Source of the DNA: a virus
Length of the DNA stretch: 48,750 nucleotides
Strand: one strand, 5' to 3'
Virus record (IMG/VR): IMGVR_UViG_3300021389_002918
Location: 1-48,750 of that record
Shown here: one piece after another, positions 8,477 to 45,837 of the stretch
How the letters are laid out: each line of letters starts with the position of its first letter
Numbering within the stretch: the first letter of the stretch is position 1
Notes under the pieces: generated by a model
Told to the model about the DNA's origin: nothing
Databases searched by the model: none
Seen by the model: only the letters and a program-made list of their open reading frames with translations
Program-made: the position numbers and the translations under genes

Positions 8477-8502
8477 AGATTAAATGATTATCTATTTAAT
8501 CT
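8477..8502 (-). other. Perfect 9-bp inverted repeat at the protease-scaffold stop
   Basis: AGATTAAAT and ATTTAATCT are exact complements around an 8-base loop that holds the stop codon at 8488. No T-run follows on the minus strand. It may be a processing site or weak attenuator between the scaffold and the highly expressed capsid gene (inference). Confidence 0.4.
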
Positions 8503-10290
8503 GAATTTCATTTTTTCTACTAAGTCATTTTTAAAAGATTCATTTACTAATGGCTCTTTAGTGGTTGCAGACTCAGCAGCAGTTTTACTTTCATTAATTG
8601 ATTCTGTAACCATTTGAGAACTTCTTAAGTCTCGCGTTGCCCAGAAATTATTAATTCCATATTGATTACCTACAGGGTGGAACCTAGATTCCGAAATAAT
8701 TTGTTGTTGTCTTGCCTCAGAAAGGTTATTCCACTTTTCTTTAAATTTTTCTGGCATATCAGTAACAACATCTAATTCTCTTTTCTTTTCAACAAAATTA
8801 GATTCCCAAATATTTTCAGCCTGTATAGTTGACATAATAGGTTTAGCATTCATAGATTCTACAATCGCAGCTTGCTTCTCTTCGGATAAAGAATTAAATT
8901 CATTCTTTTTAGATTCTCCTAAGAAATTCATAAAGTGCATTTCAGATACATTTTTAGTTTCAGCGGCTGAAATAAGTTTATTTAATTTTTCTTCAATTGA
9001 ATCTTTATAGTTTTCTGATTCATGAGCTTTACCACATGATTCATACATTTCCTTTAATTTAACTCTATCGCAATCTGGATACTTTTCACAAACTTGTTCG
9101 TATGTCATACCTTCATTAGCACATTTCTGTACTTCTTCTATAGTTGGCATAGCACCTTCCTTCATTCCATATTCATTAACAGTACCTTCATTGATTGATT
9201 CAGCATTAGGTGTGTTTACATTTTCTGCAATATACTCAGAATATTTAATACTTTTTTCTAATCCTTCACCAAGATATTCAGAATAAGCAATATTTTGATC
9301 AACCTTTTCAGCAACATATTCAGAATAATCAATACTCTTTTCTAAGTTTTCAGCAACATAGTTAGAATATTGAATTCCTTTGTCAGCCATTTCAGCTACA
9401 TGCTCAGCATATTGAATACTTCCGTCAAGCTCTTCAGCTAAGTAAGACGCATAGTCTTTAATTGAATTTACATTCTCTGCCAAATAGTCAGAGTATGAAA
9501 TATTTTTATCAAGATTTTCTGATAAGTATTCAGCATAATCAGTAACCTGATTTACTTTCTCTGCAATATGCTCAGTGTACTTAATAAGTTTTTCCATTAC
9601 CTCATCATTATTAGAATTAGTAGATTCTTTAACATTACTTAGAACTCCAGATACATATTCAGTATACTTTTGAAAATCTTCAACAGTTACAAAATTATTA
9701 TTTTCCATCGTTAGATCTTTTTTATTATCGTTATTTTCAGTTTCTTCCATTTCATATATTAATAATGTATCATCATTACTAAAACCAAAAGATTCATTTA
9801 CTCTTGATAACTCAGCATTCTCAAAGCCAGGATCTGCAACCAAGTCATAAGTAAAAAACTTTTTAATTTTAACCTTTCCACTTTCATCTACTGTACCAGC
9901 AGCTCTACTTGAAATATGTAAAGGGATGCCATCTTTGATAAGAGCTTGTGCTTCTTTACCTTTAGATGTATTTAATAATCTGATTTTACCAATAACTTGT
10001 TTTTTATCTTTATCATAATCTAAAGATTCAACAACGTGAGAGACGTTAGCCAAACTAACATCAAAATCTTTAGGGTGATCAAGTTCACCTAATAGTTTAT
10101 TGGTTTTAACTTTTTCTTGTAATTCATTAATATGAGGCATTACTTCTTTTTCCTCATATATCCTGTTATTCTTGTTACGAACACCAAATTCCGTAAACAC
10201 ACCTTCTAATACAACTGAACCATCATCAGCGGTGGTTATATCTAAATTTGATTTTGCTCTTTCAAGAATCAATAATTTTTTTCCTGACAT
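8488..10290 (-). CDS. gp21: Prohead protease fused to scaffold/core protein (gp21-gp22-like)
   Basis: This is a 600-residue fusion. Residues 1 to about 170 are the T4 gp21-type prohead serine protease: VLEGVFTEFG near 28, RNKNNRIYEE at 38-47, catalytic His72 in GELDHPKDF, the Ser127/128 motif HISSRAAG at 125-132, and VADPGFENAEL. Residues 195-360 form a scaffold-like rod: nine contiguous 14-residue repeats of type xxIxYSEYxAExxx, residues 234-359, i.e. two heptads each. Residues 360-600 are acidic and helical with many (L/x)SE or NES sites where a gp21-type protease could cut. T4 encodes protease and core as separate genes of 212 and 269 residues. Met195 could be an internal start giving free scaffold, as lambda C/Nu3 does. 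Confidence 0.88.
   Translation of the reverse strand: MSGKKLLILERAKSNLDITTADDGSVVLEGVFTEFGVRNKNNRIYEEKEVMPHINELQEKVKTNKLLGELDHPKDFDVSLANVSHVVESLDYDKDKKQVIGKIRLLNTSKGKEAQALIKDGIPLHISSRAAGTVDESGKVKIKKFFTYDLVADPGFENAELSRVNESFGFSNDDTLLIYEMEETENNDNKKDLTMENNNFVTVEDFQKYTEYVSGVLSNVKESTNSNNDEVMEKLIKYTEHIAEKVNQVTDYAEYLSENLDKNISYSDYLAENVNSIKDYASYLAEELDGSIQYAEHVAEMADKGIQYSNYVAENLEKSIDYSEYVAEKVDQNIAYSEYLGEGLEKSIKYSEYIAENVNTPNAESINEGTVNEYGMKEGAMPTIEEVQKCANEGMTYEQVCEKYPDCDRVKLKEMYESCGKAHESENYKDSIEEKLNKLISAAETKNVSEMHFMNFLGESKKNEFNSLSEEKQAAIVESMNAKPIMSTIQAENIWESNFVEKKRELDVVTDMPEKFKEKWNNLSEARQQQIISESRFHPVGNQYGINNFWATRDLRSSQMVTESINESKTAAESATTKEPLVNESFKNDLVEKMKFRLNR
9214..9591 (-). repeat. Nine tandem 42-base (14-residue) coding repeats in the scaffold
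   Basis: Residues 234-359 divide exactly into nine units of 14 with no gaps, for example KSIDYSEYVAEKVD and KSIKYSEYIAENVN. Tyr at unit position 5, an aromatic or His at position 8 and Glu at position 11 are nearly invariant. A degenerate tenth unit lies at 205-218. Codons have diverged, so the repeat is old and kept at the protein level. Confidence 0.9.
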
Positions 10291-10336: not shown

Positions 10337-11986
10337 TTATCCAAGTCCTGCTAATGGATCTTCATCGGCAGCCCCTTCTTTCTTCTCCGGTTTAAAATCG
10401 GCCTTATCGGCACCTAAAAGGATCTTTTCAATATCTTCTTCTTTATATCCTTCTTTCTCTAAATCAGCTCTTTCTTTGGCTCTTGCATTTGCCTTAAGGT
10501 CATCTCTCGTAAACCCACCATATCTCTTAACTAAGAATCCTAAATCGAAGTATGGAATTTCCTCCATTTCTGCTGTCATAGTACTTAATTGAGTTTTTAG
10601 GTTACCAATAAAATCAACTCTTTTTGTTTGTAACTCCATTTCTTTCATCTCCTCAAAAACATTATCTTTAACAAAATTAAGCCCTAAACCAGATTTAAAT
10701 GATACATCATTTTTTAATTCAGGATGATTAAGACACATTTGAAGATACATTGGTTTTACCAATATTTCCTGGAATATAGATCTTAAGCGATCAACAAATT
10801 TAGAAAATTTAATTTCATCTCTTAACATACCACTAGCATCCATATCATATGTATTACCACCTTCTTTATCAAATCTTGAGAAAGGAATTTTTGAAGCCAT
10901 TTTTAATCTATCAGCAAAATACTTAAGAGATTCAGTATCTCCTAAATCAGGACCATCACCTCCAATTGTACTAATCTCAGGACTTTTGCCGTCCTTTGAA
11001 GGTAACCAATATTCTTTATTGAATGGCATCATTGGTTTTCCGTTAGTTACAATTTCACCGCTCTCTTGATTAAAATCTACAACCTCTCTATATGAATTCA
11101 TTAACTGTGCGAGAGATTGCTTTGCTCTTGTTTTAGATTTACCACCAACTGGTATAATAAACTGAGTTTTAAATGAAGCATTAGAAACAGCCCAAATGAT
11201 TCTGGTAGTTTCCATAATTCTTAAAAGGTTAAATGATCTTATTAATCTCTCAACATAAGATATTCTCATTGGTGAATTCACTTGAGAATATGAAAGGTAT
11301 ATAATTTGAGAATCCCATAATTTTCTTTCCTTTGCACCCTGTCCTTTATATTGAACCCATTGCTTCTTTCCAGTATCAGTATCAATACCTGGCATTAAGG
11401 AAATAGGGTCCAATTCTTTAAACCCAATAATCTCCGTCTGTTTATCATTATATACTATTTCAAAAGCAAGAAAGCCATCTACTAACCATTTTCTAAAATA
11501 ATTCCACGGCTGTACCGAATCATTAAATCCAAAGTAATTATAAAGGTTATTATATACATCTCCAATTTCATCTTCTATAGAAGCAGCAATATGACCATTG
11601 AAATGAGAATATGCCATGTAATTAGATTCATCAAATACAATTGCTTCATCCGTTATAACATCTAGGATATCTTCTATTTCATCTTGTACTGCATATTGTC
11701 TAAGCTCATCTCTCTTTCTTTCATAATCTCTATCAAAAATAGAAATATTTTTCTTAAGTGTAGTATCAGTTAATGAAAGTGCAGCAAATGCGCTATACAT
11801 ATCATCTGCATCTGAACCCATTGGATTAAAGGTATAACCCATTTGATTTTCAGTAAAACCAACTGCACGGGAATTACGAATAATCATATCATCGTATGCC
11901 ATGCCTAAATTAGAAAGATCCTTTAAAATTTTTCTAACCGGATTACCTGTACTTAATGGTCCTCTTCTATCAGTAAAACCTGCCAT
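10337..11986 (-). CDS. gp20: Portal protein (gp20-like)
   Basis: The 549-residue product is the T4-type portal (gp20, 524 aa), the dodecameric ring at the head vertex through which DNA is packaged and on which prohead assembly begins. Recognisable segments include DEIEDILDVITDEAIVFD near residue 100, YFRKWLVDGFLAFEIVYNDK, DPISLMPGI, RISYVERLIRSFNLLRIMETTRIIWAV, and the conserved FSRFDKEGGNTYDMDASG followed by EIKFSKFVDRLR. A helical, charged C-terminus (residues 490-549) is typical. It lies directly before the protease-scaffold and capsid genes, the classical 20-21-22-23 order, with its own AATATATAAAC box upstream. Confidence 0.95.
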   Translation of the reverse strand: MAGFTDRRGPLSTGNPVRKILKDLSNLGMAYDDMIIRNSRAVGFTENQMGYTFNPMGSDADDMYSAFAALSLTDTTLKKNISIFDRDYERKRDELRQYAVQDEIEDILDVITDEAIVFDESNYMAYSHFNGHIAASIEDEIGDVYNNLYNYFGFNDSVQPWNYFRKWLVDGFLAFEIVYNDKQTEIIGFKELDPISLMPGIDTDTGKKQWVQYKGQGAKERKLWDSQIIYLSYSQVNSPMRISYVERLIRSFNLLRIMETTRIIWAVSNASFKTQFIIPVGGKSKTRAKQSLAQLMNSYREVVDFNQESGEIVTNGKPMMPFNKEYWLPSKDGKSPEISTIGGDGPDLGDTESLKYFADRLKMASKIPFSRFDKEGGNTYDMDASGMLRDEIKFSKFVDRLRSIFQEILVKPMYLQMCLNHPELKNDVSFKSGLGLNFVKDNVFEEMKEMELQTKRVDFIGNLKTQLSTMTAEMEEIPYFDLGFLVKRYGGFTRDDLKANARAKERADLEKEGYKEEDIEKILLGADKADFKPEKKEGAADEDPLAGLG

Positions 11987-13514: not shown

Positions 13515-15485
13515 TTAAATCTTAACATTCAGTTGACCTTTTGGACAGATTGTAGATTTTCCAGTTTTAGGATTGATACATTCTAAAGAATCGTCATCTC
13601 CTAAAGAAGTATAATCTTCAGCACTTACCATAACTTCTTGGCCTTTTCTAAGACCATTACCGTTTTTATTAATTTCAGCTTCAACAAAACCGTCGTTTAA
13701 ATAATCGTTACGACTTTTTTTTTCTGTTACTGCCTCTTCCTTCTTTTCATCCTCATCTTCATAATCTTCGCCGTCGTGAGTTTTAGACTTATCGCCTTTA
13801 TTACCACCTAATACAACTTTATCATATGTTTCTTGTAAAGATTTTTCAAACTTAGAAATTTCCTCTTCTAATAAATTCATAGCCTCAGTAAGTTCTTCAG
13901 TTTCACCAAGCTTATTAATAGCTTCTTTAACTTTAGCTTTCTTTTCTTCTAAGAATGAAATTTTATCAGAGATATCAGATCTTTCTTTTTCAACTTTAGC
14001 GACTTCATCATTTTCAGAAATCAATCTTTCTGAAAGAATTGGGCTAGCATCATAATTAATAAATTCTTTTACTAATTTAACAGCTTCAGTTGCAGAAGGT
14101 ACAAATACCATTTCATTTAAGTGCATTGCAGAATTAACTTTATTTACATAAATTCCTTCTTGAACACCAATCATAGTTAAAAATAAATTTGTAAATTCAG
14201 TTGAAGTAATGTTTGTAAAATTATCCATTTCAGCAAGAAGATCAGCAGATTCAAAGAATCTACATACATTATCAATTTTCCATTGATTTCTATAACCAAA
14301 AAAGTTAAGAGCCATTAAAGATTCTTTTAATTCGATTATGCTTGCATTTGATAAATCAGTCTCTCCTAATTTAATAGTACCTTCAGTTAAGTTGTATTCT
14401 AAGGTTTTATTATTTCCTTCTCCAAATGTAACTAATGTACCGTTCATGTTTTTAAACATTCCTAAACCTTCCAATACATCAAAGAATCTAGAATCTTTAA
14501 CTTCAGTTTCAGTAATTGTTTTTCCATCAAAGTTATAATTCTTTCCATGTAAGTGGAATGTTAATCCGTTTTCTGATTCTAAAACTGGTGAAAGGATTGT
14601 AGAAATAGTTCCACCTCCATTTGCAGTAGCTTTATTATCTTCAGCTTTCATTTCATTTAAAATTGCTTTACAATCTAATGACCATGAATTCTTAGCAGCA
14701 ATAGCAGAAAATTTAGATTTAATATTATCAGAAGATTCTGTTAATAAGGTTTCTAAATCATTTACTAATCCTTCATACATTTTACCTCTTTGTGACTGTG
14801 TTCTTGTAATAGCTTCAGATATTCTGAAAGACCATTTAGAGTCTTGGTAAGATCCTTCAATATAAGATCTTAATTCTTTAATTGGATTTAACCAATCAGA
14901 AGAAGATAAATCTCTATGAAGATTTTTAGCAATGTTAAACTTAAGCATAGGGTTAACACTGTTTTCTATTTCTTCACTGATTACTTCAGTTTCTTCGTTT
15001 TTAAATCTCATAGGAAATGCCTTTAGAGATTCTTCTAAAATGTTAAGGGCATTCTTAGCAGTATAAGAAACTCTCGATTTATCCGAATCCATCTCTTTTA
15101 AGGCCGTAATGCTCTTCATAACATTTTCGTGCAGTTCAGCAATTGTAAATTTCATTTTGTTATGATTTTTTTGTTTATTATTATTTTCTGTGATTTGATT
15201 TCCTTTGAAGGCATTAATTGCGCTCATACCTAATTGTTGAGGTATACCCATACCTACAAGAATTGCAAGCACCTGTGAGTCTGTCATTGGACCACTTTCA
15301 ACAACCTTACCATTCTTACCATCAAGTTTTGTTTTTCCACTCTGGTTAAACAAAACACCAACAATGTCAATTAATTGTTGATTAGGGGTATTAAGATAAG
15401 GGGCATCAGTATTTACACCAGCTTGGCGCTCAATTGCACCGTCCACGTAAACCTGTGTTTGACCTTCTTTAATAACTTTTTCCAT
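13515..15485 (-). CDS. Large unknown protein, probably virion-related, 656 aa
   Basis: I do not recognise this 656-residue protein. The first 110 residues contain TDSQVLAILVGMGIPQQLG and an Asn/Lys-rich linker (NNNKQKNHNK) before MKFTIAELHENVMKSI, so Met111 could be an internal start. A mixed alpha/beta middle (330-480) is followed by a coiled coil (about 500-570: ERSDISDKISFLEEKKAKVK), an acidic linker DGEDYEDEDEKKEE and a small C-terminal domain with KGQEVMVSAEDYTSLGDDDS. ISEEIEN and LNEM-type sites could be protease targets. It has a late-type promoter box and a strong terminator, suggesting high, separate expression, as for a decoration or internal head protein (inference). Confidence 0.6.
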   Translation of the reverse strand: MEKVIKEGQTQVYVDGAIERQAGVNTDAPYLNTPNQQLIDIVGVLFNQSGKTKLDGKNGKVVESGPMTDSQVLAILVGMGIPQQLGMSAINAFKGNQITENNNKQKNHNKMKFTIAELHENVMKSITALKEMDSDKSRVSYTAKNALNILEESLKAFPMRFKNEETEVISEEIENSVNPMLKFNIAKNLHRDLSSSDWLNPIKELRSYIEGSYQDSKWSFRISEAITRTQSQRGKMYEGLVNDLETLLTESSDNIKSKFSAIAAKNSWSLDCKAILNEMKAEDNKATANGGGTISTILSPVLESENGLTFHLHGKNYNFDGKTITETEVKDSRFFDVLEGLGMFKNMNGTLVTFGEGNNKTLEYNLTEGTIKLGETDLSNASIIELKESLMALNFFGYRNQWKIDNVCRFFESADLLAEMDNFTNITSTEFTNLFLTMIGVQEGIYVNKVNSAMHLNEMVFVPSATEAVKLVKEFINYDASPILSERLISENDEVAKVEKERSDISDKISFLEEKKAKVKEAINKLGETEELTEAMNLLEEEISKFEKSLQETYDKVVLGGNKGDKSKTHDGEDYEDEDEKKEEAVTEKKSRNDYLNDGFVEAEINKNGNGLRKGQEVMVSAEDYTSLGDDDSLECINPKTGKSTICPKGQLNVKI

Positions 15486-21089: not shown

Positions 21090-21389
21090 TTATTCATAAG
21101 GATTTACTACTACCTCATATGTAGTATATGCAGAATTAGATAATGATACTTTAATAATTTTATCATTTCTAAGTTGCATAAGTATAGAATTAACCTTTTC
21201 ATCGGAAAGACTATACTTCTTTTGTAAAGAGATGTTAGTGAATTTAATCTCCTTTGCTACTTTACCACAGTAATCACGTATTAGTTCATATATGATATCC
21301 TCAGCATCTGGATAGTTTGGTAGTGTTGTATGATTTCCTAATACGTGCTTTACTTTAAGTTTTGCGGTATTAAGACTTTTCTTCAACAT
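21090..21389 (-). CDS. Small protein with possible winged-helix fold, 99 aa
   Basis: The 99-residue product has a basic N-terminus (MLKKSLNTAKLKVKHVLG), a helix (DAEDIIYELIRDYCGKVAKEI), then SLQKKYSLSDEKVNSILMQLRNDKIIKVSLSNSAYTTYEVV. The last part reads like a recognition helix followed by a beta wing, the shape of a winged helix-turn-helix. A DNA- or protein-binding accessory role is plausible but not shown. Its start overlaps the 3' end of uvsX by 20 bases, so it is probably coupled to uvsX. I know no named family for it. Confidence 0.6.
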   Translation of the reverse strand: MLKKSLNTAKLKVKHVLGNHTTLPNYPDAEDIIYELIRDYCGKVAKEIKFTNISLQKKYSLSDEKVNSILMQLRNDKIIKVSLSNSAYTTYEVVVNPYE

Positions 21390-24711: not shown

Positions 24712-25830
24712 TTAAAATAGGCTTGTTGTATAAATCAAATTTCTATTAAATGATTTAAAGCCCATAGCAGTAACAACCCTATTTATTGGATCTAGGATTG
24801 TTTTTTCAAATTGTCTATCATAATCTATTTTAGGCGCAAATTCATATGGATAGTCACCCGGTGCATATGCGAATACATCACATGATTTATCTTCAGAAAA
24901 ATACATTTTACATTTTTCACCGTTTCCTAAAGGTTGATATTTACCTTTAAGACCTGAATTATTTAATAGATAATTATGATATCCTGCAGATCTTACACCG
25001 ATTGGGCACTTAGATGCAATTTCAAATGTATCATAATCACTTACAATATATTTTTGATAATTATTTACCTTTCGTGAAAAACTTATTTGATCTACATTGG
25101 CTAATCTAAACTGCCTTTTAATATCTTTAAGCAAAGCAGCGAACTTACCCATATCCAATTCAGTTACAGAAAAGATATATGTTAAAAGTTCTTTAAGTTT
25201 TTCTCTAGCAAAAATTGGAGTAGATGACTGGATAATTTCAAAGCCTTTTGAACTGATTTTAGAAAGATCATCATAGTGAATATCTGGATCCTTCCAAACA
25301 ATATTTTGCATATACTTTTTCTTGGCTAGCCATATTGCATTTTTAGCAATACTTTCTAATTCAAACGATAAGAAATTTTCTGCATTATTATCATCAGCAT
25401 ATTTTTGAAGGATCTTTTCAATATAATCATTAAGTCTTACTTTATAAAGCTTAAGTATAAATTCCTTTTCATCCCCTTCCCAGCCTTCTGATTTTTGAAT
25501 TATTTCATCAAATTTAACATACACCGAATCCGTATCAATATAAATACCTACAGGTTTTTCAATTTTACCAGTTACGGTAATACCCATCGCAGCATGAGCT
25601 GGTAAATCCTTATGCCAAAATTCTTTAAAATATTTGTTAACTAATTGTTCAGTATATAAAATTGCATCTTTACCTTGAAGAGTAATTGTTTCTGCTATAT
25701 CAACATTAAAGAAATAAAAATAAGGATTACCAAATGCACCGTAAATAGAGTTAAGCATTAACTTAACAGCTTGTTCATAATTATAGTACTTTGATGCTTC
25801 TTCTTTTATGTTCTGTAATTCCTCAGTCAT
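24712..25830 (-). CDS. gp43: DNA polymerase, catalytic C-terminal half (split gp43)
   Basis: The 372-residue product is the fingers-to-thumb part of a family B polymerase. It opens with MTEELQNIKEEASKYYNYEQ, then motif B KLMLNSIYGAFGN at 23-35 and motif C YIDTDSVYVKF with catalytic Asp99 and Asp101. Palm and thumb segments follow, to AMGFKSFNRNLIYTTSLF. It lacks the exonuclease domain and motif A, which are in the separate gene at 41952-43358. Together the two parts give 840 residues, against 898 in T4 gp43. The break lies in the fingers between motifs A and B. It is not a frameshift remnant: start, leader box and both ends are clean. It presumably assembles with the N-half. Confidence 0.94.
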   Translation of the reverse strand: MTEELQNIKEEASKYYNYEQAVKLMLNSIYGAFGNPYFYFFNVDIAETITLQGKDAILYTEQLVNKYFKEFWHKDLPAHAAMGITVTGKIEKPVGIYIDTDSVYVKFDEIIQKSEGWEGDEKEFILKLYKVRLNDYIEKILQKYADDNNAENFLSFELESIAKNAIWLAKKKYMQNIVWKDPDIHYDDLSKISSKGFEIIQSSTPIFAREKLKELLTYIFSVTELDMGKFAALLKDIKRQFRLANVDQISFSRKVNNYQKYIVSDYDTFEIASKCPIGVRSAGYHNYLLNNSGLKGKYQPLGNGEKCKMYFSEDKSCDVFAYAPGDYPYEFAPKIDYDRQFEKTILDPINRVVTAMGFKSFNRNLIYTTSLF

Positions 25831-25908: not shown

Positions 25909-26658
25909 TTAATCCTCGTCAGTAATGGCAACAGCCACAGTAAGGTGAGTGTTTGTATCTAATGATTTAAAAACCACTTTATTTTCACATACACTTACCT
26001 TGTAATTTTCTTTATCCAAAAGGTTAATGTATTTTTTATAAATTACTACCTTTGCACCTTTTTCAACATTTGAATCATAAGAGTGACAGAGTGTAGCATC
26101 ATAAGAAGTACCTTTAATGTTAATCCCCTTTTCACCAATGTAAAGAGTAAAAATATCTTCATCTTTATCAAGGTTAAATAATGATTTCATTTTATCTACA
26201 TGGGTAGTAAGTAAATCAAAATCAAACATTTTAGAATCAACACCAAATGCTCTATCTGTTTCTTCTTTACTCATTTCCATAAATGATAATGATGGATCTG
26301 TACATGCCAAATTAATCTGAAGATCTTCATTTTCTAAAATAAAATCACTTGCCATTAATTCACCATCGTATTCAGTATACTTAATTCTACCTTTTACATC
26401 ACCATTAAAATGACTTAATGCATCAATAACTTTAGTACCGTTATAAAAACTAACCTTTACTGGTTCTTTAATATCAGCATCAAAAATATCAGAGGTTGGT
26501 GTGTTAACCAATTTTACGGCATCTCTCTCAGGAAAATACACAGAAGATACCGTACCTTCTTTTGCGATTTTCATAAAGATGAATTTGTCAATTGGGAGTA
26601 ATTTGCGAACGAATGAACTTAATTCATAACCGTCAATTTTGTTAATAGTTGTTTCCAT
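25909..26658 (-). CDS. gp45: Sliding clamp (gp45-like)
   Basis: The 249-residue product is a PCNA-fold processivity clamp (T4 gp45 has 228), a trimeric ring that tethers DNA polymerase and, in T4, activates late transcription with gp55 and gp33. Characteristic parts are the N-terminal FVRKLLPIDKFIFMKIAKEG, the VIDALSHFNGDVKGRIKYTEYDG segment and the C-terminal VAVAITDED. It has no enzymatic motif, as expected. Its own box (ATATAATAATAAAC) and terminator frame it, so it can be made in large amount. It stands at the junction of the glycan cassette and the replication string. Confidence 0.9.
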   Translation of the reverse strand: METTINKIDGYELSSFVRKLLPIDKFIFMKIAKEGTVSSVYFPERDAVKLVNTPTSDIFDADIKEPVKVSFYNGTKVIDALSHFNGDVKGRIKYTEYDGELMASDFILENEDLQINLACTDPSLSFMEMSKEETDRAFGVDSKMFDFDLLTTHVDKMKSLFNLDKDEDIFTLYIGEKGINIKGTSYDATLCHSYDSNVEKGAKVVIYKKYINLLDKENYKVSVCENKVVFKSLDTNTHLTVAVAITDED

Positions 26659-27728: not shown

Positions 27729-28991
27729 TTAAATTATACTTTTTACTTTATACTTCTTTTTTGGTTTAGCACCTAATTCTTCAGATGCTATAACCTTTTG
27801 GTTTGTGTTATCTTGTTTTAGGAATGTATAATTGGTCATCTTAGCATTTCCTTCACAGAATTTTTTAACTTCATTGGCCATATCCATCGCAGTTGTAACT
27901 GGTACATTTTGTGCAATGTGATTAACTTGGCGAGAAGATTCAATTTCAAAGTCTAGAGGTAATCCCATTAAGTGCATCATCTCTCTTACATTTAAATAAC
28001 GGTTTTCAATTGGATGAACACCATTAAACATATTTCTACCGATAAGAGCAGAAAAAGAATCATGGAAGAAATGTGGGGATGCATCCCAGTAACCTAACCC
28101 TTGACTTGTTTTATATTGTTGGTGCTCTAACATATCAATAAAAGTCTTTGTAGATTTTTTATTTGAGAAACCTCTTTTAGGATAATGTTTTTCTAACCAT
28201 TTAATACAGTCATCAATCAGATCGTTATTTTCTAAATATTGTGCAATGGTTCCTTTTTTAAATTTTGCAGCAAATTCAGCATGAGTTAATCCTTCTTTTT
28301 CTAAAACATATTCATAAGGCTTAAAGTGATCAGTAACCTTTCCTTCTACCATAAACATATCTTGTTGTGTAGCATCTTCAGGGATTTCACTTAAGTAATC
28401 AATAAGCTTTTTCTTTTCTCTAAATTTCCAGTTTAACATTGGAACTGTTGGTGTATTCCAAAAGAAGTAAAAAGTTCTCATTCTTCTTTGAGGAATTCCA
28501 TGAAGTTCAGTATTTGTTTTAATAAGAGAAAAGCTATATCCGTATTTCTGTCCTATTTCTTTTAACCTATCAACAACACCTTCTCCCATTTTAGTAAAAA
28601 GACCTGGGGCATTTTCACCCCAAAGAACTTTAGGCTTAACGTGTTCTAGGATATACTCTGAGGAATTGTACATCCATTGATTTTGAGTAGCACCAGATCC
28701 TCTAGATGCAGCAGTACCTTTTGCAGAATTTAATTGTGATAAGCCTGCACATGGACAAACTGAATTTACGTAATCAACACCTTCGAATGTTTGATTAGGT
28801 ATTTCCAATTCTTCATGATCTAGCCTATACATTGGCACATCTGGCCAATATCTTTCAATATGACTTTCATTTGCCGCAAACGCATCATAACTCAAATGAA
28901 ATGCCGGTTCATTACCTGCAGATTTTTTACAACCTATAGCACTACCTCCAATAAGAGGTATTATAGTGCCCCATTTTAATTCTTTACTCAT
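27729..28991 (-). CDS. C5-cytosine DNA methyltransferase-like protein
   Basis: The 420-residue product has C5-cytosine methyltransferase motifs in order: IIPLIGGSAIGCKKSAG (motif I region, atypical), VCPCAGLSQLN with catalytic Pro80-Cys81 (motif IV), GENAPG at 125-130 (motif VI; usually ENV), GIPQRRMRTF near 165-174 (motif VIII), RYLNVREMMHLMGLP (motif IX) and QNVPVTTAMDMANEV (motif X). Motif IV has PCAGLSQ instead of the common PCQPFS, and motif I lacks the usual FxGxGG. The catalytic Cys and QRR are kept, so activity is likely; the variations could mean altered substrate. It probably protects phage DNA from restriction or prepares it for further modification. Confidence 0.85.
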   Translation of the reverse strand: MSKELKWGTIIPLIGGSAIGCKKSAGNEPAFHLSYDAFAANESHIERYWPDVPMYRLDHEELEIPNQTFEGVDYVNSVCPCAGLSQLNSAKGTAASRGSGATQNQWMYNSSEYILEHVKPKVLWGENAPGLFTKMGEGVVDRLKEIGQKYGYSFSLIKTNTELHGIPQRRMRTFYFFWNTPTVPMLNWKFREKKKLIDYLSEIPEDATQQDMFMVEGKVTDHFKPYEYVLEKEGLTHAEFAAKFKKGTIAQYLENNDLIDDCIKWLEKHYPKRGFSNKKSTKTFIDMLEHQQYKTSQGLGYWDASPHFFHDSFSALIGRNMFNGVHPIENRYLNVREMMHLMGLPLDFEIESSRQVNHIAQNVPVTTAMDMANEVKKFCEGNAKMTNYTFLKQDNTNQKVIASEELGAKPKKKYKVKSII

Positions 28992-32653: not shown

Positions 32654-33396
32654 TTGCTATATTTAATTTCTAATTCGTCAAATAATTCGTGCCCTTTCTT
32701 AAGGAACATACCTGCCAATTCATATCTTTCATTTAACTCAAAGAAAGGTACTGCTCCTAGTAAATGGACTGCTAAAAAGAATTTTAATTGATATTCGTCA
32801 TACCATTCATACATTATGTTTTCTGCTTCCCTACAGAACTTAAGATATTTAGAATTCCTTTCATTGTATATATGGGCCTCATATTTCATTACAAATGATT
32901 GCATCAGTTTTCCATAATCATAATAATTCTGTTCTTCGGTACCTCTAGGATCAATAAAAATAAAATCATTATCATATAAGATATTACTTACCGTTAAATC
33001 ACCATGAACAAAACCCCAACCTGAAGAAGCATCTAAATTACCTTCGTAAGTATATCCAGTTCTTCCTTCTAATTTATCTAAATAAGATCTTGTATCTACA
33101 TCAGTACCATAACCATCAAAATCATTTACAATATGAATGAGATCATCTAATTGATCAATTGATTTAATTAAAGGTTGCTCACAAATCTTATCATACCACG
33201 TTGGGTACTTTTTCATTTCAAAGGAAGTATCTGAAATAGGTTTAATTTTTATAAAATTAGGATGGGTGCAGTTTGCTAACCAATCCATTTGCTGTTTAAA
33301 CTTTATAGGATAGACACCTGCTTCTTTAATTACTTTATCATTTTGGAGATATACTCTATCTCCACTGTTTCCTACTAAAACTTTACCAGTATGCAT
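32650..33396 (-). CDS. Sugar/choline-kinase-like phosphotransferase (APH fold)
   Basis: The 248-residue product ends in the aminoglycoside/choline kinase pattern: FVHGDLTVSNILYD with catalytic Asp133 and Asn138 (Brenner motif HGDxxxxN), then FIFIDPRG with the metal-binding Asp149. The N-lobe holds VLVGNSGDRVYLQNDKVIKEAG with the expected Lys. Such kinases phosphorylate small molecules such as choline, ethanolamine or sugars. The start overlaps the HAD gene by 22 bases and the stop overlaps the nucleotidyltransferase by four. Choline versus sugar cannot be decided. Confidence 0.82.
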   Translation of the reverse strand: MHTGKVLVGNSGDRVYLQNDKVIKEAGVYPIKFKQQMDWLANCTHPNFIKIKPISDTSFEMKKYPTWYDKICEQPLIKSIDQLDDLIHIVNDFDGYGTDVDTRSYLDKLEGRTGYTYEGNLDASSGWGFVHGDLTVSNILYDNDFIFIDPRGTEEQNYYDYGKLMQSFVMKYEAHIYNERNSKYLKFCREAENIMYEWYDEYQLKFFLAVHLLGAVPFFELNERYELAGMFLKKGHELFDELEIKYSK

Positions 33397-33926
33397 TTCA
33401 TTTTATTTTTAAGTGCGAATGTTGAATCTACTTCTGAATCACCAACCATAAGAAAATCTTTAGGTTCATAATCATTGAAAGTTTCAAAAATTAAATCTGC
33501 CATATCTGAATGTGGCTTTTTATTTTTCACATCATCTCTTGTTACAATCATATCAAACAAATCACTGCTTATATTATGATAAGACATAATTCTATCTACA
33601 TTTTCTCTAGATGAATTAGATGCAATGATAACCTTTTCAAATTTAGAATTTTCAATAATCCATAAAAGTAATTGATTAACTTTAGTTTTATAAAGATTCT
33701 TTGAAAAAATTTCTCTTTTATAATTTTGTGCTAAATTTGATTCAACTTTAGTTAATTGATATTTCTTTAAAAGAACATCCATACCATAATTAATATCTGC
33801 CATTATGGTCTCTAATGGTATTTCTCTTTTTAGGACTCTCTCCAGCGCACGCCTCCAAGAATCTGCATGAGTATCTATTGTAGAAACTAATGTATCATCA
33901 AAATCTAATATTAAGCACCTCTCCAT
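33375..33926 (-). CDS. HAD-superfamily phosphatase
   Basis: The 183-residue product has the four HAD motifs: LDFDDTLVST with nucleophile Asp8 and Asp10, VIIASNSSREN (motif II Ser), KKPHSDM (motif III Lys), and LMVGDSEVDS (motif IV Asp). A helical cap (residues 20-80) places it with the beta-phosphoglucomutase-like class rather than the cap-less KdsC type, so it is not an obvious Kdo-8-phosphate phosphatase although kdsA is nearby. It opens the downstream half of the cassette, behind its own TATATAATAATAAA box and past a terminator. Confidence 0.85.
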   Translation of the reverse strand: MERCLILDFDDTLVSTIDTHADSWRRALERVLKREIPLETIMADINYGMDVLLKKYQLTKVESNLAQNYKREIFSKNLYKTKVNQLLLWIIENSKFEKVIIASNSSRENVDRIMSYHNISSDLFDMIVTRDDVKNKKPHSDMADLIFETFNDYEPKDFLMVGDSEVDSTFALKNKMKCILVKF

Positions 33927-33996: not shown

Positions 33997-34030
33997 AAAA
34001 AAGGACTACCTAATTAAAGATAGTCCTTTT
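33997..34030 (-). terminator. Intrinsic terminator after the Hc1-like gene
   Basis: Minus-strand AAAAGGACTA and TAGTCCTTTT form a perfect 10-bp stem around a 12-base loop, followed by a T-run. It lies 18 bases beyond the stop at 34049 and divides the glycan cassette into two transcription units. Confidence 0.87.
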
Positions 34031-34048: not shown

Positions 34049-34225
34049 TTACATATTGTTTTTAGTTTCCTGTACATGTAGTCTTAGTTCTTGTGCAAGA
34101 TTCTTAACTTCCTGCATTGATTTTCTAATTCTTACAGCCGCAGCTTTATTTCCTTTCGCGTAAAATTTATCCACGTCTTCGCTTACTGATTCGATTAAAG
34201 CTTTGATTTCTTCAAATTTTTCCAT
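34049..34225 (-). CDS. Histone H1-like (Hc1-type) small DNA-binding protein
   Basis: The 58-residue product, MEKFEEIKALIESVSEDVDK then FYAKGNKAAAVRIRKSMQEV and KNLAQELRLHVQETKNNM, fits the short Hc1-like histone family found widely in Bacteroidetes. Its hallmarks are an acidic first helix, the FYAKGNKAA motif, an R-x-RK-x-MQE segment and LAQEIR-type repeats. Such proteins are thought to bind DNA and help compact it. The gene has its own late-type promoter box (AATATATAAAA) and its own terminator, so it can be expressed strongly and alone. It splits the glycan cassette. A phage copy might organise phage DNA for packaging or compete with the host nucleoid (inference). Confidence 0.87.
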   Translation of the reverse strand: MEKFEEIKALIESVSEDVDKFYAKGNKAAAVRIRKSMQEVKNLAQELRLHVQETKNNM

Positions 34226-34240
34226 AATAGTTAATTTTTA

Positions 34241-34257
34241 TTGTTTTTTTATATATT
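34241..34257 (-). promoter_or_regulatory. Candidate late promoter, AATATATAAAAAAACAA
   Basis: Minus-strand AATATATAAAAAAACAA, 15 bases before the Hc1-like start at 34225, with the AATATATAAA core of virion-gene boxes. Confidence 0.42.
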
Positions 34258-34259
34258 CA

Positions 34260-35162
34260 TTAGAATTTACCTTTTCTGTTTCGATAGAAACTAGTTAATC
34301 TAGGTATGTACATATACTTATGACCTTTATCTTTGATTGCTTTCATCATTCTATTAAACATATCAACATCAGCTGCATTTGTTTTAGATAAAGGTATTTT
34401 AGGTGCAGTGTTTGCTTGTTGTGAAGCATCTCTATATCTTAAATCACCACACATACTCGGTCTCCATGAAACTGCAGAATGGCTAACATCACCATGAGTA
34501 TAACCTAAATTATTAGGTTCTATTGTTGTGGTATGTCTTTCTTCTCTTGGCTGATACATAAACTTTTTTGAACTATTTGTTGCATCTACCTTTTTGCGAC
34601 TTCTTGTAAACACGTAAGCCAATTCAGGATACTGAGTATATGCCTTTGCTAAAAGTTCTAAATGATCTGGTGTCCACTTATCATCATGATCAATTCTTAC
34701 AATATAATCACAACCGTCGTTCTTTGCCATTTGAAGACCTTTATTCATTGCACCACAACCTGCAGTATATCTAAATTGCTGTTTAGTAAATCCTTTATCT
34801 CTTTCACCAGGTGTAGATAGGTTATGGTATTTAATTTTACCTTTTGGAATTACTTCATTCATGACAGTTTTTATTTCTTCATCTCCATCATATTTATCAC
34901 CAACTAAATAAACTACATAATTGTCATATTTCTGATTCTTTATAGATCCTAAAGAATCTTTAAGTAAAGAAGGTGTATCCATAAATTTCTGCCTACCAGT
35001 TTGGGCACCACCGTCAGATATTTTATGAGTAGGCATTACAATACCGAACTTAATCTTTTTATCAATTTCACCGGATAGATTTTTTTCTAGTAAAATTTCA
35101 AAGTTTTTAGAACCTATATAAGATTCTAATAAGTTAAAATCATCAAAGGATATCGCTCTCAT
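34260..35162 (-). CDS. Glycosyltransferase family 2-like protein
   Basis: The 300-residue product has a GT-A, GT2-like core: KFGIVMPTHK at 38-47, LLKDSLGSIKNQKYDNYVVYLVGD, GAMNKGLQMAKNDGCDYIVRIDHDDKWTPDHLE with the metal-binding DHDD at 158-161, and later DVDMFNRMMKAI. An extra N-terminal segment (residues 1-36, MRAISFDDFNLLESYIGSKN) precedes the fold. It follows the PglE-like aminotransferase with a four-base overlap (ATGA) and may add the product of that pathway to an acceptor. It lies upstream of the Hc1-like gene. Confidence 0.88.
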   Translation of the reverse strand: MRAISFDDFNLLESYIGSKNFEILLEKNLSGEIDKKIKFGIVMPTHKISDGGAQTGRQKFMDTPSLLKDSLGSIKNQKYDNYVVYLVGDKYDGDEEIKTVMNEVIPKGKIKYHNLSTPGERDKGFTKQQFRYTAGCGAMNKGLQMAKNDGCDYIVRIDHDDKWTPDHLELLAKAYTQYPELAYVFTRSRKKVDATNSSKKFMYQPREERHTTTIEPNNLGYTHGDVSHSAVSWRPSMCGDLRYRDASQQANTAPKIPLSKTNAADVDMFNRMMKAIKDKGHKYMYIPRLTSFYRNRKGKF

Positions 35163-39087: not shown

Positions 39088-40863
39088 TTATCCGTCACAA
39101 CTAATACAGTCTTCCATTGCTTTTTGTGCAATGTCACCTCTTAGTACAGATTCAGTTCTCATATAATATAAAGTTTTAATCCCTTGCTTCCATGCTTCTA
39201 AATGAACCTGATTAATCCACTTTGGTGTAGCTTCTTTAGGAAAGGCAAGATTTAAAGATACTGCTTGGTCTACATATTGTTGTCTAACACCTGCCTGTTT
39301 TACTAATTCCAATTGATTAATTTCTTTAAAGGTTTTAAACACATCTTTAAACGGTACACCTTCTTGGTATTGTGGAACATCTTTACATTTCATTAGTATT
39401 CCTTTTAAGAAACACCAATCATCTAAGAATTTTAAACCTTGCACAGATCCACCATCAGCCATAATTTTATCCCATACCTTTTTATTATCATGACCAATTT
39501 TATCAAGGTAACCTTCTAACTGAGTGTTCTTTCTAATAAAGGTTCCTTTTGCAGATTGATCAGTCCATATATTTGCAGGTACAGGTTCAATCCCTGCGGA
39601 TATTCCACCAGCCAATTTAGAATTAGAAACCGTAGGTGCAACTGCCCTTAAGTGTGTATTTCTGAACCCGGTATCTCTACACCATAAAGGTTCTCCGTAT
39701 TCCTCAGCAAGATCGCGGCTTGCCTTTTCACTTTCTATTTTAATTTGAGAAAATATATTACGAGTTTCGTATTGTGCTTCTAAACCTTCAAACGCGATAC
39801 CTCTTTGTTGTAAATAAGTATGCCATCCTAAAACACCTAACCCAATTGCCCTACCTTTTTCTGCAGTTCTTACTGAGTTTTCAAACCCTTTTCTGTATTT
39901 TGCTTTTTGAATAAATTCTTCAAGTACACCGTCTAGGAACCACGTAGCATCATAAATAAGATTAGTATTTTTCCATTCATCATACTTAGAAAGATTAAGA
40001 GAACTTAGGCAACATACAAATGAATGATTTTCGTCTGTGTGTAAAACAATCTCAGAACAAATATTAGTCATAAACACCTTTAAGCCATTTCTCTTATATG
40101 CTTCAGGGTTTTGTTTATTAACATTACCTCTATACATAATATAAGGTTGACCAGTTTGCCTACGCTTTCTCTGTACTGCGGCATATCTTTTTCTAGATTC
40201 AGCATCACCTTCTAAAACATTTCTCATAAACTTATCCGAAATAATAACACATTGGTTAGTATTCAAACACTGTCTATTAATATCTCCTTTAGGTTCTCTA
40301 ATTTCTAACCATTCCCAAAAGTCCCCATGATCAATGCTTAAGTTTGTACTAGCAGCACCTCTTCTTACTGCACCTTGGTTAGTAGCAAGAATTGTAGAAT
40401 CATTAATTTTAATAAAAGGTACTACACCATCACTTGTACCGTTATCAGTTATAGATGCACCAGCCGGTCTAATCTGATTATGGCATATTCCTACACCGCC
40501 ACCATGTTTAGCCAATAGCATTAATTCAAGGTTCTTTTGGCCTATGTCATTAATAGAATCAGCTACATCAATTCCAAAACAACTAATAGGTAAACCTCTT
40601 TCAGTTCCAGTATTACTTAATACAGGTGATGCTAAATTTAACCATCCCTTCCAAATGTACTTCATAAACTTATCAGCCATTTCTGGTTTTTTAAGCCTAT
40701 TTGCAACGGTTGTTGCAACTCTCCAATATGCATCCTTTGGGGTTTCTCCTGGTAAACAATACCCTCTTGATATTGTATTTAGGTAAACATCAGTATGACC
40801 CCACTCTGGGTAATCAACACCACGTTCCCAACCTAATTCTTTTTCTATTTGATCTGCTGTCAT
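39088..40863 (-). CDS. nrdA: Ribonucleotide reductase large subunit, class I (NrdA)
   Basis: The 591-residue catalytic subunit reduces ribonucleotides to deoxyribonucleotides. Visible motifs are SPVLSNTGTERGLPISCFG, GGGVGICHNQIRPAGA, NICSEIVLHTDENHSFVCCL with the Asn, Cys and Glu of the active site, PTVSNSKLAGGISAGIEP and YYMRTESVL with the radical-transfer Tyr pair. A C-terminal Cys586-x2-Cys589 pair (CISCDG) serves for re-reduction. It is much shorter than T4 NrdA (754). The N-terminal ATP-cone is absent, so overall dATP inhibition through that domain is not expected. It lies 18 bases after nrdB. Confidence 0.95.
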   Translation of the reverse strand: MTADQIEKELGWERGVDYPEWGHTDVYLNTISRGYCLPGETPKDAYWRVATTVANRLKKPEMADKFMKYIWKGWLNLASPVLSNTGTERGLPISCFGIDVADSINDIGQKNLELMLLAKHGGGVGICHNQIRPAGASITDNGTSDGVVPFIKINDSTILATNQGAVRRGAASTNLSIDHGDFWEWLEIREPKGDINRQCLNTNQCVIISDKFMRNVLEGDAESRKRYAAVQRKRRQTGQPYIMYRGNVNKQNPEAYKRNGLKVFMTNICSEIVLHTDENHSFVCCLSSLNLSKYDEWKNTNLIYDATWFLDGVLEEFIQKAKYRKGFENSVRTAEKGRAIGLGVLGWHTYLQQRGIAFEGLEAQYETRNIFSQIKIESEKASRDLAEEYGEPLWCRDTGFRNTHLRAVAPTVSNSKLAGGISAGIEPVPANIWTDQSAKGTFIRKNTQLEGYLDKIGHDNKKVWDKIMADGGSVQGLKFLDDWCFLKGILMKCKDVPQYQEGVPFKDVFKTFKEINQLELVKQAGVRQQYVDQAVSLNLAFPKEATPKWINQVHLEAWKQGIKTLYYMRTESVLRGDIAQKAMEDCISCDG

Positions 40864-41951: not shown

Positions 41952-43358
41952 TTAAGACTTTTTAAGTTCTTGTTCCAAATCATATGCTTTTTGCTGTAAA
42001 CGGAAAGATTCTTTCTTATATTCCTTTCTTTGTGAATATAACCTAGTAAGAACATCCTTTAAGATTGATCTTTCAGTATCATATACTGCTCCAGTTACTG
42101 ATACAATATTATTGTCACCCTTTTCTTCAGATCTCTTTTCAGGTGATACCTTTTTCTTAAAGCTTTCTGGTGAAACGTTCATCTGTCTCATAATAGAAGG
42201 GTATAGGGAAGCAAAGTCAAATGCAGCAACAGCATTATGCATACCTGTTATAGGCTCTTTTACAAAGGCTCCCTCGAATTGTTCTCTTTTTGCAGGTGGT
42301 GCTTTAGGATCTTTTGCCATTACAAGATTCCTTGTTAAAAATTCCCTTGCCAATAATGCCTCAGTAATTGCAACTGGTGATGCTGCTTTAAAAATACTAA
42401 TCTGACTCATATGAGCAATAGTTAAGGCAATATCCATTGTTTTAATTTTTTCATGAATAAGATAAACTAATGCAGTATCAATTACATTATAGAAAACATA
42501 TTTAGGATAATCCTTTTCATACATATCCTGAATAGTACCTTCATATTTAACTTTCTTAATACCTACAACAGCTTCACCTACAGTATCAAGTTTAAAATCT
42601 TCTTTAATATCAACAGTCCTATCCCATTTAGCATAAATATCTAAATAATCCATTACACCTACATGACAAGGAAATTCATCTCTACCAAACGTTCTTCCTA
42701 ATGGAGAAGCAGATCCGATATCAATCCCTAATTTTTTACATCGGTTAATAATATATTGCCAATCAAATTTTACATAGTTCCAACCTGTCATCATTGGAAA
42801 TTTCTGAACGAAAGACATCATAAAAGTTGACATCATATCATATTCAGTTTTAAAACATTTAAATGTAAATGAAAAATCATCATCTATATTTTTAAAATGT
42901 TCATCTATTTGTTTTTGTATTTTTGTTTGCGTTTGATTATCTAAATCTTTAGTTGCTAAAACGATACATTGTTTTTCTGGAGTAACAATACAAATAGTAG
43001 TAACAGGATTAGGTGCTTTACTTGGTTCAGGAAATGAATCAGTTACCTCAACTTCAATATCTACAAAATATGTTCTAGGAAAATGATAACCGAAAATAAG
43101 TTCTCTATCAGACTTAGATAAGTTATCCATATATTCGATAACCCTATACTTATTTAAGAATCTTGACCTTGCCTTCTTAACTGACCGACCGTCCCAATTT
43201 TTTATTTTTGAATCTGCATTAGGATCACCTTCATCACATACCTCCCAATTAAACATATCTTCTGGTTTAAGATCGTAAGTTTTAAATCTAGTTTTACCAT
43301 CAAGGTTAAAATAAGATACCCATAATTGGCGATCTTCTTGTGTAATATCTAAAAGCAT
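41952..43358 (-). CDS. gp43: DNA polymerase, exonuclease and palm N-terminal half (split gp43)
   Basis: The 468-residue product is the first part of a T4-type family B polymerase. The proofreading 3'-5' exonuclease is complete: TYFVDIEVEV with Asp100 and Glu102 (Exo I), TGWNYVKFDW with Asn194 and Asp199 (Exo II), and YNVIDTALVYL with Asp294 (Exo III). Motif A, AAFDFASLYPSIM with Asp381, follows. The protein then ends in a charged helix (SQRKEYKKESFRLQQKAYDL to EQELKKS), just where the fingers would begin. Motifs B and C are in the gene at 24712-25830. No intein sequence is found at the break. The two charged helices could pair to rejoin the halves (inference). Confidence 0.94.
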   Translation of the reverse strand: MLLDITQEDRQLWVSYFNLDGKTRFKTYDLKPEDMFNWEVCDEGDPNADSKIKNWDGRSVKKARSRFLNKYRVIEYMDNLSKSDRELIFGYHFPRTYFVDIEVEVTDSFPEPSKAPNPVTTICIVTPEKQCIVLATKDLDNQTQTKIQKQIDEHFKNIDDDFSFTFKCFKTEYDMMSTFMMSFVQKFPMMTGWNYVKFDWQYIINRCKKLGIDIGSASPLGRTFGRDEFPCHVGVMDYLDIYAKWDRTVDIKEDFKLDTVGEAVVGIKKVKYEGTIQDMYEKDYPKYVFYNVIDTALVYLIHEKIKTMDIALTIAHMSQISIFKAASPVAITEALLAREFLTRNLVMAKDPKAPPAKREQFEGAFVKEPITGMHNAVAAFDFASLYPSIMRQMNVSPESFKKKVSPEKRSEEKGDNNIVSVTGAVYDTERSILKDVLTRLYSQRKEYKKESFRLQQKAYDLEQELKKS

Positions 43359-43380: not shown

Positions 43381-43875
43381 TTAGTAATTGTTTTCTTGTC
43401 TGTTCCAATTCTCTTCATTCTTAGAAAGATAGTAATTATAGAATTCTTGTGGTGTAACACCGATGGCTAAACCTGCATTAAATACAAAATGCATTACATC
43501 GATCCATTCCATTTTTAATTCCTTTAAATCACCAGGAGTTAAATCAGATAACTTTTGTTTTCTAATTTCAGGATTTGCAGATTTCCAAGGTTTCCATGCA
43601 GCATTACCTTCACCATCTTCAATGCCTCCTACTGCATCCATCATTTCATGTAATTCATCGATAATTGCATGATTTGTTACCATGAGAAAATCTACAACAT
43701 CACCTATAGTAAATTCAGAAAAAGGTTTTCTACCTTGTTTCTCAAAATACATAGATTGTGTTTTTGCTTGGAGTGAATAAAGATCTTCTAATGAATTTTT
43801 AGAATGATCATAACCGTTCTCTGAAAAGTAATCTCTTACCTCGAGATCTTTACATTTATTATCAATGTTAGCCAT
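43381..43875 (-). CDS. Dimeric (all-alpha) dUTPase / NTP pyrophosphatase
   Basis: The 164-residue product matches the all-alpha dimeric dUTPase/MazG-like family. An AIIDELHEMMDAVG helix carries acidic metal ligands, a Trp/Lys-containing loop WKPWK follows, then EWIDVMHFVFNAGLAIG with Glu and Asp, and the tail YYLSKNEENWNRQENNY with the Lys, Asn and Arg that hold the nucleotide. It splits dUTP or dUDP to dUMP, keeping uracil out of phage DNA and supplying dTMP synthesis. It lies just before the polymerase N-half, next to the RNR genes, and has a TATATAAAAATAAA box. Confidence 0.85.
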   Translation of the reverse strand: MANIDNKCKDLEVRDYFSENGYDHSKNSLEDLYSLQAKTQSMYFEKQGRKPFSEFTIGDVVDFLMVTNHAIIDELHEMMDAVGGIEDGEGNAAWKPWKSANPEIRKQKLSDLTPGDLKELKMEWIDVMHFVFNAGLAIGVTPQEFYNYYLSKNEENWNRQENNY

Positions 43876-44758: not shown

Positions 44759-45268
44759 TTAACAGTTAAATCCTTTAATGTAAATATCTAAGGAGGTTAA
44801 TAATTCAGGAGTTCTTACGCCGCTCCTACATACGGCATCCAATGTTTTTTGTTCAGTTTTAAGTATCCAAGCAATCTTAAGATTATTAACTAAGACATCA
44901 TGAATATTCTTAACTGTGATTTTTTCTAAGTCATAAAGCTTTTTTGCTATTTGAGATACTGGTACAATATGTTCTTGGTGAAAGATACCATTTTGCCTAC
45001 CTATATCTCTCAATCCGCTTTTATGATTTTGTTCTTTCCACCTTACCCACTGTAGTCTTTCTTCCGCATCAGGTATTTCCATTTTCTTTGCTTCACTTAA
45101 TGCACCTAAAGAATACATATAAGGTATTCCATGTTGTCTAGGATTATCAGAAGAGAATCTAATTATTCTGGATATAGCATACTTGGTATCTTTATCATCA
45201 GGATTTTCATCATACCATTTAAGTAACGGGTATAATGTTTCGGCATATAATTTTATTCTTGGTATCAT
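44759..45268 (-). CDS. Unknown protein with EHxVPV motif, 169 aa
   Basis: The 169-residue product contains IFHQEHIVPVSQIAKKLYDL near residue 98, then NNLKIAWILKTEQKTLDAV and, last, RTPELLTSLDIYIKGFNC. The His-x2-His and EHxVPV pattern, followed by a KIAxILKxEQ strand, resembles conserved unnamed phage proteins and hints at an HNH/beta-beta-alpha-metal-type nuclease or a metal-binding fold, but I cannot show the third motif. It begins inside the stop of the sigma-70-like gene (ATGA overlap) and ends four bases before the glycosylase, so it belongs to that unit. A self-standing homing nuclease is possible but unsupported by any inserted intron. Confidence 0.55.
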   Translation of the reverse strand: MIPRIKLYAETLYPLLKWYDENPDDKDTKYAISRIIRFSSDNPRQHGIPYMYSLGALSEAKKMEIPDAEERLQWVRWKEQNHKSGLRDIGRQNGIFHQEHIVPVSQIAKKLYDLEKITVKNIHDVLVNNLKIAWILKTEQKTLDAVCRSGVRTPELLTSLDIYIKGFNC

Positions 45269-45837
45269 CCTTTCATCAGTTTTAGAGCATTACGAATATT
45301 TCCGTTTACCGCCTGAACAGTCAGACCAAGTTCTTTGGCAATTTCAGAGGTTTTCATTTCATGGCAGCCAATACCGAATTTCATTTTAATGATTTCCTGT
45401 TGCTTAGGTTTTAGTTTGGTAAGTAAACCTGCAATAGTATGATTCAGATGTGATTCATTATGAGCAGATTCAATATAAGGTTGATATGAACCTTGGTAAG
45501 TAGCATCCAATACAGATACTTTAGGAGCCTCTTCGGTAAGGTGAGTCTTATGCGCCGGTACTCGGATGGTACGGCTTTTGTTATTAAGAGCTTGGCGAAT
45601 TGTTGCCTTAATCCACCATGAGGCATGGGTGGAGAATTTTGCACCGTTTGATTTTGCAGGGTTCCATTTATCCCTTGCCTGGCATAATCCGATTGTACCT
45701 TCATGGATTAGATCTTCTAATGATAATCCCATACCTTGATATTTTTTAGCAAGGTGAACGACCAATCTTAGGTTACCTAATACTGGGTCTTTTGATGTTT
45801 TGTACTCTCCGATTTGTTTGTAGAATGTGTTATCCAT
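45265..45837 (-). CDS. Sigma-70-family RNA polymerase sigma factor
   Basis: The 190-residue product is a compact sigma factor. LRLVVHLAKKYQGMGLSLED, LIHEGTIGLCQARDKWNP, then AKFSTHASWWIKATIRQALN and RTIRVPAH reproduce regions 2.1-2.4 of RpoD (RpoD reads LRLVISIAKKYTNRGLQFLD, then KFSTYATWWIRQAI). Region 3 is very short, and region 4 is present at the end: LKPKQQEIIKMKFGIG then SEIAKELGLTVQAVNGNIRNA with a helix-turn-helix for -35-type recognition. It is distinct from the gp55-like factor at 13065, so the phage makes two sigmas. T4 has no such factor. It may turn on early or middle genes. Confidence 0.92.
   Translation of the reverse strand: MDNTFYKQIGEYKTSKDPVLGNLRLVVHLAKKYQGMGLSLEDLIHEGTIGLCQARDKWNPAKSNGAKFSTHASWWIKATIRQALNNKSRTIRVPAHKTHLTEEAPKVSVLDATYQGSYQPYIESAHNESHLNHTIAGLLTKLKPKQQEIIKMKFGIGCHEMKTSEIAKELGLTVQAVNGNIRNALKLMKG

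Follow-up and report, generated by a model that had tools for sequence, protein, structure and literature searches.

A short Hc1-domain gene that looks late in a T4-like, Bacteroidota-type phage lineage

Introduction

Short proteins with the Hc1 domain (Pfam PF07432) are widespread in Bacteroidota, and the question raised here is what such a protein could do when it is encoded by a phage. The locus is hc1, which encodes a 58-residue protein on the minus strand (34049..34225) of the virus record IMGVR_UViG_3300021389_002918; the whole stretch of DNA that was analysed, 48,750 nucleotides (nt) long, is called the window. An earlier reading made from the letters of this DNA (the sequence-only reading) had called the product a histone-like protein of Hc1 type with its own promoter and terminator. 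What is new here is an indication, given by a shared promoter-like element, that hc1 belongs with the virion genes.

That phages encode PF07432 proteins is already published: four complete genomes of jumbo "moraphages" encode them, and genome compaction is speculated in the part of that account considered here (PMC12619734), whose passages hold no analysis of promoter, terminator, neighbourhood, charge or selection for the gene. Literature searches on Hc1/H1-like proteins in phages or Bacteroidetes, Flavobacterium/Bacteroides nucleoids, phage nucleoid proteins and Lak phages found, among the papers listed, no functional test of the short form. A conserved phage hc1 that forms its own unit and is apparently tied to virion genes would make a small and tractable system. 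If the protein were present in virions or bound to replicated phage DNA, the domain would have a function that does not depend on the basic tail of the chlamydial protein.

Results

That hc1 is no chance open reading frame (ORF) is argued by its match to the Pfam Hc1 model, which is full length (profile positions 1-57 of 57) and, at 83.5 bits against a gathering cut-off of 23.5, far above the curated threshold. The frame 34049..34225(-) starts with ATG and is a real gene for a full-length member of PF07432, so the homology search bore out the relation to Hc1 that had been claimed. Among the motifs named for it, FYAKGNKAA is present exactly, whereas the supposed "LAQEIR-type" stretch reads LAQELR. 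The protein agrees with the short Hc1 type of Bacteroidota in having about 55-60 residues, a helical hairpin and the residues R32, R34, K41, Q45 and R48; this list of invariant residues was derived here rather than curated, and the hairpin was modelled for the phage protein only. HctA itself was ruled out as an identity, since the score against the HctA equivalog model (NCBIfam NF051889) is 21.8 bits over residues 4-37, with a cut-off of 100, and the basic C-terminal nucleic-acid-binding region is absent. No PHROG family covers hc1 (best E 0.021, to an unnamed family), and no relative of solved structure was found by sequence (best E 0.16). A fold search in PDB and BFVD returned nothing at E 0.001 or better, where such lists carry little information because many unrelated proteins match helical hairpins.

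The AlphaFold model of the protein is a hairpin with helices at residues 2-13, 15-24 and 27-57 and a mean pLDDT (the per-residue confidence score) of 97. The five residues R32, R34, K41, Q45 and R48 are identical in all 76 distinct phage and bacterial sequences. The alignment used with the structure has 32 rows: the window protein plus 31 drawn from the 51 phage and bacterial loci.

How firmly the gene is held was approached through two scans. Scanning viral contigs with a sequence pattern turned up 35 loci that encode an Hc1 protein; a HAD gene is next downstream in 28 of them and a glycosyltransferase gene lies upstream in 27. In the window these neighbours are a HAD-family phosphatase (33375..33926, minus strand; PF13419) and a family 2 glycosyltransferase (34260..35162, minus strand; PF00535), between which hc1 stands as the isolated single gene that had been described. 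A scan with an independent gene, which encodes a conserved protein without a Pfam match (25909..26658, minus strand), gave 69 loci, and hc1 was present in all 35 that have a full 10 kb upstream; many of the contigs concerned had also come up in the pattern scan. In the remaining 34 loci hc1 is visible in 7 and not in 27, where the contig may stop before the hc1 slot. By this distribution, hc1 belongs to the core of a phage lineage that is T4-like, of Bacteroidota type and related to jumbo phages.

The position of hc1 is also seen in distant relatives. In the most distant loci (L281-L289) the hc1 frame starts 317-394 nt before the homologue of the 25909 gene; in L281 and L287 the end of nrdA immediately precedes it, and in the uncultured phage LR756500 it adjoins the 25909 homologue. 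The order in these relatives is nrdA, hc1, terminator and then the 25909 homologue. In the window, nrdA (ribonucleotide reductase large subunit, 39088..40863, minus strand; PF02867, phrog_84) and the 25909 gene are separated by a sugar cassette, which would therefore surround an older hc1 slot, and we infer from synteny that the slot predates the cassette.

The gene is under strong purifying selection. The ratio of nonsynonymous to synonymous substitution (dN/dS) between the window and 31 relatives, a comparison that omitted L031 and L033-L035, is 0 to 0.16 for 28 of them and 0.43 for L032, while two are saturated in dS.

As to origin, 117 of the 198 Bacteroidota genomes sampled hold PF07432, compared with 1 of 14 control genomes. 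The window protein is 53-63% identical to the alignment rows from Bacteroidota and Balneolia, and shares length, family and invariant residues with the short Hc1 proteins of Mucilaginibacter, Pedobacter, Cyclobacteriaceae and Dyadobacter. Phage proteins of the window lineage carry AAAVR, whereas nearly all bacterial short Hc1 proteins carry AAGTR, and the phage proteins mostly form their own cluster. In a tree of 58 columns, poorly resolved and built with identical rows merged and the tail of the bacterial protein L102 cut, 23 phage rows fall into one cluster (support 92/87). The phage label needs two changes; the phage proteins may nevertheless have a single origin. They fall among the Bacteroidota proteins, and both the tree and the genome survey agree with the short Bacteroidota histone-like type assigned by the sequence-only reading. 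The protein L102 (genome G191) is itself of 88 residues, with an Ala/Pro/Lys-rich, H1-like tail and a charge of +8.2.

The Hc1 domain also occurs in huge phages. Seven of 11 records searched with the PF07432 model are positive (LR756500, LR745206, LR756502, Lak-A2 and three viral contigs), each of the four named phages having an Hc1-domain protein above the Pfam cut-off; the model found none in Tenacibaculum phages pT24 and PTm1, LR756504 and LR756501. LR745206.1 has a second, weak match at 246465-246620(+) with 26.2 bits. The protein of Prevotella phage Lak-A2 (MK250019.1, 211493-211660(-), locus L297) scores 77.9 bits, and a palindrome similar, as judged by eye, to the hairpins that follow hc1 in the other three named phages lies downstream of its gene. 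Because that protein is divergent and its gene is far from the head gene, a separate capture of hc1 by Lak-A2 is suspected.

The host of the window phage is likely to be a member of the Bacteroidota, as had been proposed. The major head protein is nearest to those of the 462-kb uncultured phage LR756500 (56%), the Prevotella Lak phages (34%) and the Tenacibaculum phages (31-34%), and the nearest named phages thus infect Prevotella and Tenacibaculum. The window is a virus record whose T4-like genes include those for the portal, the head maturation protease and the major head protein as well as for SbcC/SbcD-like subunits, a DnaB-like helicase, UvsX, ribonucleotide reductase and a sigma factor.

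What could drive hc1 was sought in the 34-nt gap upstream of it. The promoter that had been claimed is not of sigma-70 type: the gap holds no such site, this candidate was ruled out, and a scan of the region for promoter-like sites found 2 against a shuffle mean of 3.2, which is no excess. A promoter-like signal does find support in another form, as a conserved phage-type element, TGAATATATA, matches exactly at 34250..34259(-), about 33 nt before the ATG of hc1. This late-type element is kept at -30 to -44 before hc1 in 29 of 35 related loci. Written as GAATATATA, the element has 33 exact copies in five contigs, of which 30 stand 20-36 nt ahead of a same-strand called start. Since these copies precede starts, the signal lies in position and not in numerical enrichment: allowing one mismatch, TGAATATATA occurs 13 times where shuffles average 19.6, and the number of exact GAATATATA copies exceeds the shuffles only in G006 (9, the shuffle maximum being 7), falling inside their range in the window (WIN), G010, G004 and G015.

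The element is shared with virion genes. Across six contigs of this lineage it precedes hc1 in 6/6, the protease gene in 6/6, the portal gene in 5/6, the gene for a 656-residue protein in 6/6 and the gene for a 388-residue protein in 3/3, and the tail tube and tail sheath genes likewise bear it. In the window, GAATATATA stands before the portal gene (10337..11986, minus strand; phrog_213) and the gene for the 656-residue protein (13515..15485, minus strand; no PHROG match), and the variant TAATATATA before that for the head maturation protease (8488..10290, minus strand; phrog_207). The element was found for 11 of 18 function-assigned head gene instances as against 1 of 100 replication, nucleotide or sugar gene instances (Fisher p about 4e-10, with orthologues treated as independent although they are not independent counts). 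We infer that GAATATATA is a late promoter core, for which the phage sigma factor (45265..45837, minus strand; phrog_351) would be a candidate reader. As the genes for portal, protease, tail sheath and tail tube have the element too, hc1 has the look of a late gene in the lineage of the window.

The end of the unit is clear. An intrinsic terminator, a hairpin followed by a T-run (33999..34030, minus strand; -16.1 kcal/mol), lies 18 nt past the stop of hc1, as had been claimed, and 30 of 38 related loci have a comparable one behind hc1 in a folding-based scan, which supersedes an earlier scan that required perfect stems (5 of 35). In LR756500, LR745206 and LR756502, too, hc1 stands as a single gene with a terminator hairpin behind it.

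Discussion

Our preferred explanation, held tentatively and with a fair chance of being wrong, is that hc1 is a phage version of a host nucleoid protein, made late in infection and acting on phage DNA. A short Bacteroidota Hc1-domain protein would have been captured from a host and then fixed as a phage core gene. It would be transcribed as a single-gene unit from the late-type promoter, alongside head and tail genes. The helical-hairpin protein would self-associate, as suggested by the chlamydial N-terminal domain, and bind replicated phage DNA through its invariant Arg, Lys and Gln residues. The bound DNA could so be kept compact or ready for packaging, and the protein possibly be carried into the capsid. 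The late timing is read from the element and the self-association from the chlamydial domain, while nucleic-acid binding and a packaging role are proposed steps. The sequence-only reading is thus confirmed in what it observed and borne out in part in what it made of it; the condensing or marking of phage DNA and the interference with the host nucleoid that it suggested are conjectures.

Several observations weigh against this explanation. The window protein has a net charge of +0.2 and ends at residue 58 without a basic tail, the charge across the 35 phage Hc1 proteins being -0.8 to +3.2. In HctA of Chlamydia, by the portion of PMC3469542 considered, the DNA-binding domain sits in the C-terminal region. 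The likeness of the phage protein to chlamydial HctA/Hc1 lies in the N-terminal domain (residues 4-37 with NF051889), whereas the basic C-terminal DNA-binding region has no counterpart in it. Because only the N-terminal portion is present, the phage protein keeps the part linked to self-association without the DNA-binding part of HctA, and DNA binding by it is presumed. The model gives a weak hint at most of a functional face: one 100-degree arc of helix 3 holds 7 of the 9 near-invariant polar residues, a clustering equalled by about 3 to 7% of random choices. As to timing, the late-type element is absent before hc1 in 6 of 35 loci, and in none of 6 contigs does it precede the major head protein gene. 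No clear late element stands before hc1 in LR756500, and in the distant contig G225 the virion genes carry GATATATAAA while hc1 carries CTATAAAATAAAA, which is nearer to the element of replication genes. Late timing as a trait of the whole group was rejected on account of these distant relatives; since hc1 in G225 lacks the virion-gene element, late timing may be a gain of the window's lineage and thus lineage-specific.

The distant relatives bear on a different target for the protein. It is conceivable, if rather unlikely, that hc1 serves host takeover, its product forming mixed oligomers with the host Hc1-domain protein and so remodelling or silencing the host nucleoid. The spread of the family in Bacteroidota genomes (the 117 of 198 above) and the invariant residues common to phage and host proteins would suit such a role, and the place of hc1 beside nrdA in distant relatives, with an element nearer the replication type, would suit earlier expression. 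In T4 biology, however, the host genome has as a rule been shut down by late infection, when the late-type element of the window's lineage would act. That element sits better with action on phage DNA or virions than with early interference with the host nucleoid.

The lack of charge can also be taken at face value. The protein could be a small helical adaptor or virion-internal protein in which the Hc1 domain is an oligomerisation module that binds no nucleic acid, a role that we regard as rather unlikely. It would account for the neutral charge and missing tail and for the promoter element common to hc1 and structural genes. The N-terminal part of Hc1 is reportedly the seat of a potential dimerisation site, going by the title of Pedersen et al. 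1996. Against an adaptor, the strict invariance of five basic or polar residues in phages and bacteria alike suggests that they serve a conserved ligand, and the tail of the bacterial protein L102 points to a chromatin context.

The ligand could also be RNA, and the protein an RNA-binding or translation regulator in late infection, which we consider improbable. A title cited in PMC12619734 reports that chlamydial Hc1 interacts with DNA and RNA and represses transcription and translation; that activity is one of the full-length basic protein, and the present data do not separate RNA from DNA. A neutral host-derived passenger without function, for which the small size and the place in an accessory cassette speak and nothing more, is very improbable, given that hc1 is kept in all 35 informative loci with dN/dS far below 1, in a slot seemingly older than the cassette.

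Returning to a late-made protein that acts on phage DNA, a bolder form of it would hold that this histone-H1-family domain has become fixed among the late genes of a Bacteroidota jumbo-phage lineage. The product would be a phage chromatin protein, coating replicated DNA and entering the capsid, and huge phages, Lak among them, would have captured the domain on more than one occasion. This form we think unlikely.

The shared promoter-like elements could be used to tell the late genes of this uncultured phage group from those of the replication phase. A second element, CTATATAA, stands before the SbcC-like (16515-18185), DnaB (19769-21052), UvsX (21370-22566) and dUTPase-like (43381-43875) genes and the HAD gene next to hc1, and is a candidate middle-phase promoter. 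The family B DNA polymerase of the window is seemingly split into two ORFs, 41952-43358(-) and 24712-25830(-), about 16 kb apart. Between them lie the ribonucleotide reductase genes and the sugar cassette, which contains a C-5 cytosine methyltransferase-like gene (27729-28991(-), PF00145).
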